A DNA stretch of 64,000 nt from an uncultured Pirellulaceae bacterium (GTDB taxonomy: Bacteria; Planctomycetota; Planctomycetia; Pirellulales; Pirellulaceae), in contig CALKCK010000030.1 of assembly GCA_938083195.1 (NCBI GenBank), positions 1 through 64,000 on the forward strand. The letters are read 5' to 3'. Positions within the stretch are counted from its first letter, which is position 1. Every line of letters starts with the position of its first letter. The notes beneath the pieces are model-generated. The model ran no database searches and had not been told where the DNA came from. It saw nothing but the letters and a program-made list of their open reading frames with translations. Positions 35,312 through 40,881 of the stretch are shown here, in pieces. The translations under genes were made by a program, and so were the position numbers.

Positions 35312-37963
35312 ATGAAAGCTCACAACCGAATTTTAATCGCCGGCCTTGGTTTTGCTCTCCTGGGATGCAATGGTAATTCTGAGCCCATTGAAAAATCCGC
35401 TCCTCCTGAAAAGGTGGTGGATAGAGTCTCCCTCTCGCCTGAACAGGCAAGCATTCAAGGGATCACGGATTCTGAGACTTTGATTCAGTCTTTATCAGCA
35501 AAAAAAAGTATGCTGGGCCGCTCTCTAATTGATTCCGGCATCGATACGTCTGCCTTCGCGGTTGAGGCGGTGCAGTGCCGTGGTCTTCAAGATGTAGATT
35601 TAAAAGATTTACTCGCGCGGTCTTCTTCTGAGTCAGCCAAATCGTCTTTGCTGCCGCAGGATTTGGCAACCGAAGTGTTATGGCCAATTTCTGAGGAACA
35701 GCATTCGTTAAGTCTTCGAGAAGTTTGGCAACCGCTGTCACGTCAAAACGAATTCGAAAACGCACAGTTCGGAGTGCTTTCGGGAGCCTTGTTGCCAAGC
35801 GGAGATTTCGAAATGGCGACAAAGTTTGAAGGTCGCATTCGCACTGCCGACGGATCTCTTTTGGGTGTAATTGGTTATCAAACTTTGGTGTGGCATCGCT
35901 CCGATACAGGCGACTGGAAAATAGCTCAGTGGAAGCAAGAGAAATTAAAGGTCATTAATTCGGTTTCGTCTTTGTTTGAAGACGTAACAAGACAAGCGAT
36001 CACTGACCCCGTTACTTTTGAAAAGCTGTCGACCGCTTCCCATGAGGAGTTAATTATTCAGCGTTGCGATGAGTTGGAGGAATCCGTGCGACAGGCTGAT
36101 GCTTCAGGCGGCCAATCCCAGAAGCAAAGACAAGAAATGGTTGCGAATTTTGCGGCCCGAGCGGAGTACAAGGGGTGCAACGATTGGACCTCCGTTGGGC
36201 AGTATCCGGCAGTCAGTTCCGTCGATTTTAATCAAGACGGTTTTGATGATTTATTTGTCACCGATCGCTGGCAACCGCCGCAAATGCTTCGCGGCAACGA
36301 TGACGGTACCTTTACTGATGTGACCAGCGAGGTCGGGCTTGAAGTCGATGAAATGGTGACCTGTGGTTATTTCTTTGATTATGACAACGATGGCGATGCT
36401 GATTTGATGCTTGGCCTTTCACTCGTGCCCAGCTTGTTTTATGAAAATCAAGATGGCAAATTCACTCCTCACGCGGAGATTAATCGGGTTTTGAAAGACG
36501 TTCGGTGTGTGAATGCAATATCGATTGCCGATGTTAACCGTGATGGACTGTTGGATATGTACCTAAGCACCTACGCGACGGGGACCGGACCAATTGAAGA
36601 TTGGATCGGATTTATTACCACGGAAAAGGAGCAATTGAAAACGCGTTTGAAAATTGAGCGCGCCGACAAGTTTGTGGATCGAGGCGGCCCTCCAAATATT
36701 CTATTGATGAACCGGGGCGGAGGATTCGAGTGGGCCAAAATCTCTGATGAATTGAAGCAGTACCGAGGCTCCTACCAGAGTTCTTGGGTGGATTACGACA
36801 GTGACGGAGATCCAGACCTCTATGTCTGTAATGATTTTGCTCCCGATGTGTTTTTGCGAAACGATACCGTGAAAGGCAGTTTCAAGCCTGAGTTTGTCGA
36901 CGTCACGCCCGATATTATTCCAACGATGGATATGGGATTTGGAATGGGATGTTCCTGGGGCGATTTTAATAACGACGGTGATCTCGATTTATATGTATCT
37001 AATATGTACTCCAAAGCAGGTAATCGAATTGTGGATCAAGTAGCAGGGTCCGATCCGAGGCTGAAAGTTTCGGCTCATGGTAATTTCTTGTTTGAAAATG
37101 AAGGTGGGAAGTTTCGGCAAATTGCTGGACCGGATGAAGATCAACAGCATGTCGCTCGAGTCGGTTGGTCATTCGGTGGGCAGTTTGCTGATTTTGACAA
37201 TGACGGAGAACTTGATCTTTATGTTCCCAGTGGGTGTTATTCGGCACCTTCCGAAGTAAAGACCAAAATCGATTTGTGAAGTTGTCTCTGGCGCGAAGCG
37301 GTTCGCTTCGGTGTGGGACGGGACTCCGAATTTTCGATGGCCGAACAGTGGGGGGCGTTAGAGTCAACTCGGACGATCTTTTTTGAATGGACGGATCAGC
37401 CTCCTGAGGGAGAAAGGCACCTCAATAGTAATTCACTGAGTGGCCAGGAGCGAAACCGGATATTTTTTCGAAGAGACGGGAATTATGAAGACCTTTCACT
37501 CGTTTCGGGTGCGGATTTTATGTCGGACGGCCGAAGTTTTGTGCTGTTTGATTACGATCGTGATGGTTGGCTCGATCTTGGAGTTGCCAGTTCGAACCAT
37601 CCACGCTTTCGAATCGTAAGAAATAAGATTGGAGATCAGGCCAAGATCGATAATCAGTTTCTCGAAATTTCACTCGTCGGTGGACAAACATCAGCTTCGC
37701 CTAGCGACGAGTGGAGTTCGCGAGACGCTTTTGGCTCGATGGTAAAAGTGACAACGTCCAAGAACCAACGGCTGTTCCAGCTTTCATGCGGGGAGGGACT
37801 ATCGGGCGTCAACGCCCAGAGAATTCATGTTGGCTTGGGGCCCCTTCAATCAGTTGACCGAATTGAAGTATTGTGGCCTAGTGGAAAGACCACGGTTCTT
37901 GAGAATGTTGAAGCCGGAGAGCGTATTACGGTTTATGAGAACCCGGAGATGTCGAAGGACTAG
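35312..37963 (+). CDS. Probable selenocysteine FG-GAP/ASPIC_UnbV lipoprotein, copy 1
   Basis: I read this as one 883-residue protein with the in-frame TGA at 37277-37279 decoded as Sec656. The N-terminus is a lipoprotein signal (lipobox ALLGC). About 230 residues of unknown fold follow, then FG-GAP/VCBS propeller repeats with Ca-binding-like DxNxDG loops such as DFNQDGFDD, DYDNDGDAD and DFNNDGDLD. After the TGA the frame continues S-C-L-W-R-E-A-V-R-F-G and ends in an ASPIC/UnbV domain (VLWPSGKTTVLENVEAGERI). The TGA site gives a Sec-Ser-Cys motif, redox-like. Without recoding it would be a 655-aa protein followed by an orphan 216-aa frame starting GTG at 37313 with no ribosome site. Copy 2, 294 nt downstream, has the same arrangement. 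A hairpin after the TGA fits a SECIS. It is probably an outer-membrane or periplasmic surface protein; function unknown. Confidence 0.8.
37280..37319 (+). promoter_or_regulatory. Candidate bacterial SECIS element, copy 1
   Basis: Fourteen nt after the TGA, CGAAGCG (37294-37300) pairs perfectly with CGCTTCG (37304-37310), closing the loop GTT. A lower helix GTCTC (37284-37288) with GGGAC (37315-37319) is possible across a small internal loop. The apical loop begins with G and sits 21 nt after the TGA. Both points meet the general bacterial SECIS rule (apical loop about 16-37 nt from UGA, G in its first two positions). The hairpin lies within the continuing coding sequence, as bacterial SECIS elements do. 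Confidence 0.65.
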
Positions 37964-38256: not shown

Positions 38257-40881
38257 ATGAACTTTAAATTTGTTTATTTTACCCTCTTGGCTTGGGCTGT
38301 TAGTTCGGTCGTTTTGTTAGTTGGCTGCCAGCCTGAACCGGCGCCTCCGAATGATGTGGAACGTCCCGTTGTCGACGAGCCCGAGTTGTCGGCCGAGCAG
38401 CTTCGCATTAAAGGAATAACTGACTCTGAAACGGTGATTCAGGGGTTGGCTGGTAAAAAGAGCCTGCTAACCGCGGGGTTGAAAGATTCTCAATTAGATC
38501 TCTCGGCTGTGGTCCCTGAGACCATCGAATACGTTGGTATCGAAGACAAGACGATTGAGTCGTTGTTATTCTTGGCAGAAGAGAAGTCTGATGATTCTCT
38601 TGCAACGTTCGTGGATTGGCCGATCAGACGGCAGTCAGAGGTGATTGGTTTTAGCGAGGTCTGGGCGCCTTTGTTTAAAAAAGGACGTTTTGAAGATGCT
38701 CAACTAGGAGTTCTCAAAGGCTCGCTCCTTGAGTCGGGTGTCTTCGAGATGGAAACAAAATTTGAGGGTCGTATGCTGCGAGAGGGGGCGCCACTCGGAG
38801 TTCGCGCCTATCAAACGCTTGGTTGGCGCGAAGTTGCAGATAACGACTGGAAGCTTGTTTCTTGGAAACAGTCAAAGTTTTCAATCATCACTTCGTCGGA
38901 GACGTTATTTGAGAATATTACGGCCGATTCCATTCCCGATCTAGAAACATTGAACGCCGTATCGAAAGCGACTCACGAAGACTTGATTGTCACCCGTTGT
39001 GGGGAGATGGAAATTATTCGCTCTCTCGAAAATGGTAAGGTGGTTGAATCGCAGTCGATAAAGGAAGCGAGGGATGAATTCAAAGGCTGTAATGATTGGG
39101 GTTCTGTAGGGCAATATCCATCGGTCAGCGTCGTCGATTTCGATAACGATGGTTACGAGGATTTGTTTATGACAGATCGCTGGCAAGCCGTGCAGTTGCT
39201 TCGGAATCAGGGGGACGAGACCTTCGTTGACGTGACCAAGTCGGTTGGCATCGATGTGCCCGAAATGGCGACTTGCGGATATTTCTTTGATTTTGATAAC
39301 GACGGTGATTCTGATTTGCTGATCGGGATGTCGATGGTGCCAAGTCAGTTTTTCGAAAATATCGGCGGACAGTTCAAGCCGCATGACGCCATTAATGAAG
39401 TGCTTCGAGAAACTCGTTTTGTCAATGCAATTTCAGTTGCAGATTTGAATCGGGACGGCCTCGAGGATCTTTACTTGAGTACCTATGCTACGGGAACTGG
39501 ACCGATTGATGATTGGATCGGGTTTGTTACTCGTGAAAAAGAGCAGTTGAAAACGCGGCTGAAAATTCTTGGGAACGATAAGTTTGTCGATCGAGGCGGA
39601 CCTCCAAATATATTGCTGATGAATCGTGGAGAGAGTTTTGAATGGGTGAAGATGGATGATGAATTAAAGCAGTATCGTAATTCTTACCAAACATCATGGA
39701 ATGATTACGATAGCGATGGCGACCTCGATCTCTATATCTGTAATGATTTTGCTCCCGATGTTTTTCTTCGGAACGATACGGAACGAGGCAGTTACAAGCC
39801 AAAATTTACGGACGTGACGGCGGCAGTCATTCCTACGATGGACATGGGTTTTGGCATGGGATGTAGTTGGGGCGATTACGATAATGACGGTGATTTAGAC
39901 CTTTATGTTTCTAACATGTATTCCAAAGCTGGGAATCGCATTGTCGATCAGGTCGAGGGGGCTGATCCCCGGTTGAAGGTGGCCGCCCATGGAAACTTCT
40001 TGTTTGAGAACCAAGGTGGAGTTTTTGAGCAGGTCGCGGGAGATGAAAAGGGAGAGCAGCATGTCGCGCGAGTTGGATGGTCTTATGGTGGTCAATTTGC
40101 CGATTTCGATAACGATGGAAATTTGGATATTTACGTGCCGAGTGGGTGTTATTCGGCTCCGGAGGAAGTGAAAACGAAAGTTGATTTGTGAAGTTGCTTA
40201 TGGCGTGAAGCAGTTCGCTTCGGAGAGGGTCGAGGACACGATTTTTCAAATGCGAAAGAATGGGGGCCATTGGAAGAAATGCGGACCATTTATTTCGAGT
40301 GGATTGATGATCCGCAACCTGGCGAGCGGTACCTGAATAGCAATTCCCTCAGTGGTGGCGAAAGGAACCGGATTTTCTTTCGACGCGACGGCAATTATAA
40401 AGATTTCTCACTTGTTTCTGGTGCCGATTTTCGGGAAGACGGTCGTGGGTTTGTTCTATTGGATTTCGACCGAGACGGGTGGATTGACCTTGGTGTGACC
40501 AGCCCCAATCATCCGAGATTTCGTTTGGTTCGGAACACGATTGGTGATCGAGGGGGAAAGGCTGGTTATGTCGAAATCGAGCTTGTGGGTGGACAGACAA
40601 CAACTGTCGCGAGTGAGCAATGGAGCCCGCGGGATGCCTATGGTGCCACGGTGACCGTGTGGCAGAATGGTGAAAAACAGAAACGGATGTTCCACTTGTC
40701 TTGTGGAGAAGGTTTGTCGAGTGTGAATTCCAAACGCATTCATGTGGGAATGGGAGACGTGAAGAAGATCGACATGCTCGAAGTGACATGGCCCAGTGGC
40801 AAAAAGACGATTAGGGAAGACGTCAATGCAGGAGAGCGAATCAAAATTTTTGAAAATCCCGCATTCGACAATCAAGACTAG
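38257..40881 (+). CDS. Probable selenocysteine FG-GAP/ASPIC_UnbV lipoprotein, copy 2
   Basis: This tandem paralogue of the previous gene reads as 874 residues with TGA (40189-40191) as Sec645. Lipobox LLVGC near residue 24; the same unknown N-terminal domain (E-Q-L-R-I-K-G-I-T-D-S-E-T); FG-GAP/VCBS repeats (DFDNDGYED, DYDSDGDLD, DYDNDGDLD, DFDNDGNLD); then KTKVDL-Sec-SCLWREAVRFG and a C-terminal ASPIC/UnbV domain (VTWPSGKKTIREDVNAGERI). The frame after the TGA has no start codon until an ATG at 40270, 26 codons on and without a ribosome site. The protein-coding signal already begins directly after the TGA. Compared with copy 1, the 11 residues after the TGA are identical although five codons differ synonymously. 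It starts 293 nt after copy 1 ends. Confidence 0.8.
40192..40222 (+). promoter_or_regulatory. Candidate bacterial SECIS element, copy 2
   Basis: TGAAGC (40206-40211) pairs with GCTTCG (40217-40222), including one T-G pair, closing the loop AGTTC. It is in the same alignment position as the copy 1 hairpin, starting 14 nt after the TGA. G is the second loop residue. The lower helix of copy 1 is not kept. One stem position is changed to a mismatch next to the loop (A40212 against C40216), which only enlarges the loop. Confidence 0.6.

Follow-up and report, generated by a model that had tools for sequence, protein, structure and literature searches.

A predicted FG-GAP/ASPIC lipoprotein of a Pirellulaceae bacterium with an in-frame UGA almost certainly decoded as selenocysteine

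A large lipoprotein gene in the genome of an uncultured Pirellulaceae bacterium is interrupted by an in-frame TGA, which raises the question of whether this codon ends the protein or is translated and, if so, as which amino acid. The window, meaning the whole 64,000-nucleotide stretch of DNA analysed here, carries this gene (copy 1) and a tandem copy (copy 2):

35312..37963, + strand: inferred selenoprotein gene copy 1, encoding an 883-residue lipoprotein; selenocysteine (Sec) at codon 656, stop codon TAG at 37961-37963
37277..37279, + strand: UGA codon 656, putative Sec; TGA is found at this alignment column in 182/203 distinct relatives and Cys in 8
38257..40881, + strand: inferred selenoprotein gene tandem copy 2, 874 residues; Sec codon 645, one in-frame TGA and the same motif
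40189..40191, + strand: UGA codon 645 of copy 2, putative Sec, in the same motif DLUSCLWREAVRFG

The reading frame of copy 1 continues through the TGA and is conserved on both sides of it. The gene starts with the ATG at 35312 and contains 655 codons upstream and 227 sense codons downstream of the TGA, apart from which it is a single open frame; its homologues likewise have one TGA in the same frame. A preliminary description of this locus had claimed that the frame runs on from 37277-37279 for 227 residues into an ASPIC/UnbV domain and that TGA is a normal stop elsewhere in the window. Both claims hold, with a UnbV_ASPIC match at residues 806-873 (E 2.2e-15) and TGA as the terminator of 9 of the 31 other ORFs. 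Comparison of copy 1 with two orthologues (ca. 88% identity) gave dN values of 0.05-0.07 and much higher dS values on both sides of the TGA. For the downstream part, dN is 0.05-0.06 and dS 0.66-0.88, indicating purifying selection in the frame of copy 1, and because dN is low and dS much higher, we infer that this part is translated in the same frame. Homologues in which the two halves are separate genes with their own starts, named beforehand as a potential refutation, were not seen. The adjoining genes encode nucleoside diphosphate kinase, diaminopimelate epimerase and 2-oxoacid:ferredoxin oxidoreductase and, being housekeeping genes, provide no hint of function from genome context.

The TGA recurs at the same position in a large set of homologues. 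Searching 60 related genomes with the protein yielded well over 100 matches whose open frame is interrupted by exactly one TGA, and a profile search covering 149 genomes of the phylum extended this set. Same-column TGA codons occur in records named Planctomycetota, Verrucomicrobiota, Myxococcales and Gemmatimonadetes, and one distant relative was found in viral contigs. Of 203 distinct sequences, 182 carry TGA at the site, 8 encode Cys and 4 Gln, with the remainder showing other residues or gaps; this set was collected with TGA-containing queries and is consequently not unbiased. Judged from these sequences, the TGA of copy 1 is not a chance occurrence, as it recurs at the same column in copy 2 and in the 182 relatives. 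In the 36-sequence alignment, Asp at position -2 and Trp at position +4 relative to Sec are invariant, and the family motif around Sec is D-x-U-[ST]-x-x-W. Aligning homologues at the site, a check suggested in the preliminary description, thus returned TGA in homologues and Cys in one group: the eight Cys sequences share the motif DYC[ST]xFW and group together in a FastTree tree (SH-like support 91). The other non-Sec residues require several separate changes in this tree. The occurrence of Gln, Arg, Asn, Ile, Ala, Ser or Gly at this position in several relatives shows that the residue is dispensable in some paralogues.

In sequences L251-L256, L147, L149 and L107, Sec is replaced by Ala, Arg, Asn, Gln, Ile or Ser and the W motif is retained. 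Some non-Sec relatives share genomes with Sec copies (e.g. G461 and G508), which suggests paralogues that have lost the Sec function. One relative, L263 (G389:C78:24701-25474), contains the Sec-site TGA plus two further in-frame TGAs ca. 20-25 codons later, and may represent either a protein with several Sec residues or a decayed copy.

The genome of this organism encodes Sec machinery and a second, known kind of selenoprotein. The 4.8 Mb draft (92% complete) contains selA (591 bits), selB (366 bits), selD (259 bits) and a tRNA-Sec with the anticodon TCA (UCA; 67.4 bits), all above curated cut-offs; the search for selA, selB, selC and selD that had been proposed as a check therefore found the complete set. 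The selD gene (L020, G000:C40:5264-6172) occupies the end of an open frame of 740 residues; by eye, the first half of this frame resembles an NADH-dehydrogenase-type FAD protein, and SelD of this genome appears to be a fusion. A formate dehydrogenase gene (L271, G000:C20:108515-109786) carries a TGA in CAATUHAP, at the classical Sec position UHxP. This Sec-type formate dehydrogenase is an independent positive control, and by this criterion the genome uses Sec.

The motif and tRNA-Sec co-occur across genomes. Scanning 346 genomes of the order with a DNA pattern for the motif, we found tRNA-Sec of at least 60 bits in 39/45 motif genomes versus 47/301 motif-free genomes (Fisher p 2.5e-21). The 60-bit line was drawn because the scores form two groups, one at 62 bits or above and one at ca. 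50 bits. The filter applied to the motif matches used no tRNA data but was written after the matches had been seen; unfiltered, the co-occurrence gives p 8.5e-17. These p-values are not corrected for shared ancestry. The lack of tRNA-Sec in six of the 45 motif-bearing genomes is possibly due to incomplete drafts. Outside the order the picture is mixed, with five genomes at 62-72 bits, ten at 53-55 bits and five without a match, one of these last being the genome of the Ser relative L107.

SECIS-type hairpins are located just downstream of both UGA codons:

37294..37310, + strand: SECIS-type hairpin of copy 1, CGAAGC-GGUUC-GCUUCG; the loop begins 20 nt after the UGA
40206..40222, + strand: SECIS-type hairpin of copy 2, UGAAGC-AGUUC-GCUUCG; hairpin scan p 0.0498

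The hairpin is close to a published bacterial SECIS model (PMC13188914). Folding energy alone, computed for the 42 nt following the TGA, showed only a weak shift relative to synonymous shuffles (median z -0.71), and for this reason a hairpin-specific test was adopted. The resulting scan was devised after hairpins had been seen in the sequences, its limits are close to the published model (PMC13188914), and the relatives scanned are not independent. A hairpin with G in the loop and the right spacing was found in 89% of 123 TGA relatives versus 22% of synonymous, protein-preserving shuffles, and in 0/9 non-TGA relatives. No unbroken stem is present in 13 of the 123. The stems fall into four registers, within which compensated pair changes occur, for example A-U to C-G or G-C. 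The copy 1 hairpin reaches p 0.005 against synonymous shuffles with the tighter GUU loop, and its 48-nt fold has a z of -2.59; in copy 2, the minimum-energy fold of the corresponding isolated 48 nt differs from the hairpin.

UGA codon 656 is almost certainly decoded as selenocysteine, an inference that rests on comparative genomics only, without protein or selenium data. This reading, already favoured in the preliminary description, gains support from the Sec machinery, the TGA and Cys residues of homologues, the formate dehydrogenase control and the SECIS-type hairpin. If the TGA were instead a true stop, arising from a nonsense mutation, an assembly error or a boundary between two genes with the second starting at GTG 37313, its normal use as a stop in the window and the 216-residue ORF with a GTG start that comes after it would be in keeping. 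The retention of the TGA in 182 distinct relatives from several phyla, the purifying selection on the downstream frame and the conserved motif directly after the TGA, which includes residues upstream of GTG 37313, make termination here vanishingly improbable. If a suppressor tRNA, leaky termination or an altered genetic code caused the UGA to be translated as one of the ordinary amino acids, no SECIS would be required, and the Gln, Arg, Asn, Gly or Ser found at the site in some relatives would be compatible with this. We nevertheless consider such readthrough very improbable given that other window genes end in TGA, that tRNA-Sec and selA/selB/selD are present in the genome, that the site tracks tRNA-Sec across genomes, that the SECIS-type hairpin is a hallmark of TGA members, with none found in those lacking the TGA, and that Cys is the commonest alternative residue. 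The nonsense mutation, two-gene and ordinary readthrough models were all rejected on comparative grounds. Sec decoding might also be accompanied by a dual output in which low selenium leads to a functional 655-residue truncated product and the UGA acts as a selenium-dependent switch. Stopping at the UGA would indeed leave a lipoprotein with most of the FG-GAP repeats, but truncation would break the predicted propeller (ca. residues 214-780) and there is no sequence support for a functional short form, so that we regard this as unlikely.

Copy 1 belongs to a family with multiple members per genome. Copy 2 is 64% identical to copy 1, and the genome contains seven TGA copies altogether. These are grouped in three clusters, namely the pair in the window, another pair on contig C20 and a set of three on contig C32. 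A genome of the same family (G031) contains at least 20 copies, with 20 matches to the motif pattern compared with 0 for a reversed control. Tandem arrays with several TGA-containing family members in ca. 15 kb were observed at L264 (G484:C253) and L265 (G514:C204).

The predicted copy 1 protein combines a lipoprotein signal with a propeller and a C-terminal ASPIC/UnbV domain:

35312..35368, + strand: lipoprotein signal peptide with lipobox LLGC and lipidated Cys19, predicted by eye; sequence MKAHNRILIAGLGFALLGC
35951..37651, + strand: FG-GAP beta-propeller region, ca. residues 214-780, containing Sec; range from Pfam FG-GAP, model and structural alignment
37277..37306, + strand: predicted helix 656-665 with Sec as its first residue, preceded by strand 650-654; DSSP on the AlphaFold2 model
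37727..37930, + strand: UnbV_ASPIC domain, residues 806-873 (PF07593, E 2.2e-15), translated only with UGA readthrough

A Cys is present at the lipobox column in 25/36 aligned relatives. The FG-GAP match (PF13517, E 3.2e-35) reflects repeats located mainly upstream of the TGA. The region preceding the propeller (35438-35962, ca. residues 43-217) has no Pfam match and is predicted to form helices followed by four long strands. An AlphaFold2 model built with 36 relatives and Cys in place of Sec (pLDDT 89, pTM 0.89) has murine CRTAC1 (9etn) as its closest solved structure (Z 40.1, 457 residues, rmsd 2.4 Å); lower-ranking fold matches, which are general propellers, were left out of the inference of function.

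Sec is located in the propeller region of copy 1, not in a thioredoxin-like domain: no thioredoxin-type Pfam match was obtained for the window proteins, and both copies lack such a domain. A C-terminal ResA/TlpA-like domain with a CxxC motif is found in 15/36 aligned relatives. This fusion and the position of Sec at a predicted helix start, combined with the exchange of Sec for Cys, make a redox role likely, although activity has not been shown experimentally. The Sec-Ser-Cys motif of copy 1, taken as a redox-like arrangement in the preliminary description, is not general, the +2 residue being Cys in only 20/36 aligned relatives. A redox role is less certain than Sec decoding because no partner Cys near Sec is conserved family-wide in the 36 aligned relatives and because a thioredoxin-like domain is missing from the window copies.

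FG-GAP propellers bind calcium, and Sec could mainly serve as a metal ligand or structural residue and not as a recycled redox centre. Besides calcium binding, the lack of a family-wide partner Cys and the precedent of Sec bound to metal in formate dehydrogenase and NiFeSe hydrogenases (PMC13188914) point in this direction. Thiol chemistry is favoured by the fused CxxC domains and by the predicted helix-start position. We judge a mainly metal-binding or structural Sec to be less likely, and a metal-ligand role remains possible.

We are highly confident in the overall reading that copy 1 encodes an exported FG-GAP/ASPIC lipoprotein whose UGA 656 is decoded as Sec via the hairpin and most likely forms a redox centre, none of which has been shown biochemically. 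The exported lipoprotein would consist of an N-terminal alpha/beta region, the FG-GAP beta-propeller and the C-terminal ASPIC/UnbV domain. Decoding of UGA 656 by SelA, SelB, SelD and tRNA-Sec, directed by the hairpin with its loop ca. 20 nt downstream, is strongly inferred. The selenol is predicted to lie at the start of a helix, within D-x-U-[ST]-x-x-W, and would most likely act as a redox centre at the cell surface or in the periplasm, on a substrate that we cannot name. In many relatives the fused ResA/TlpA-like CxxC domain could reduce the selenol, and copies without this domain, such as copy 1, would need reduction by a separate thiol-disulfide protein.

The inferred decoding mechanism is standard; this protein family does not appear to have been recognised as selenoproteins before. 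As in bacterial SelB/bSECIS selenoproteins such as formate dehydrogenase FdhA, there is an in-frame UGA accompanied by selA/selB/selD and tRNA-Sec, Cys homologues exist, and a hairpin with G in the first loop positions lies just downstream; unlike these, the window family is built on an FG-GAP/ASPIC beta-propeller scaffold and has many paralogues per genome. CRTAC1 (cartilage acidic protein 1; ASPIC-UnbV) shares the FG-GAP repeats and the ASPIC domain and has the closest solved fold, but the window protein is a predicted lipoprotein with an extra N-terminal region and its Sec motif was not seen in the CRTAC1 sequence. ResA/TlpA thiol-disulfide oxidoreductases resemble the CxxC domain fused C-terminally in 15 of the 36 relatives; this domain is absent from both window copies, where Sec lies in the propeller region. 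Sec use in Planctomycetes was already known, with selenoprotein candidates reported for two planctomycetes (PMC4807772). A 2026 review counts 119 prokaryotic selenoprotein families/subfamilies (PMC13188914), among which there is no FG-GAP, ASPIC or propeller entry. We found no FG-GAP/ASPIC selenoprotein in the literature searched, two earlier surveys included, with a prior mention in table S9 of PMC4807772, Haft & Tolstoy 2025 or Deng et al. 2026 not excluded; a comparison with NCBIfam at E 1e-5 gave no model for the window protein.

A broader proposal, which we hold to be evenly balanced, is that FG-GAP/ASPIC propellers constitute a new selenoenzyme class, acting at the surface or in the periplasm, that is recycled by ResA/TlpA-type partners, has expanded in tandem and places some Planctomycetota among the richest bacterial Sec users. 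If true, this Sec richness would be achieved largely through one family missed by current catalogues. Selenoprotein-rich bacteria are viewed as mainly anaerobes (PMC13188914), a view on which the family bears, the lifestyle of the present organism being undetermined. Annotation of UGA as a stop would shorten seven of this organism's genes and no fewer than 20 in its relative. The family places selenocysteine on a propeller scaffold that the 2026 catalogue lacks. It would also provide a testable redox site in bacterial CRTAC1-like proteins, for which we found no function here.
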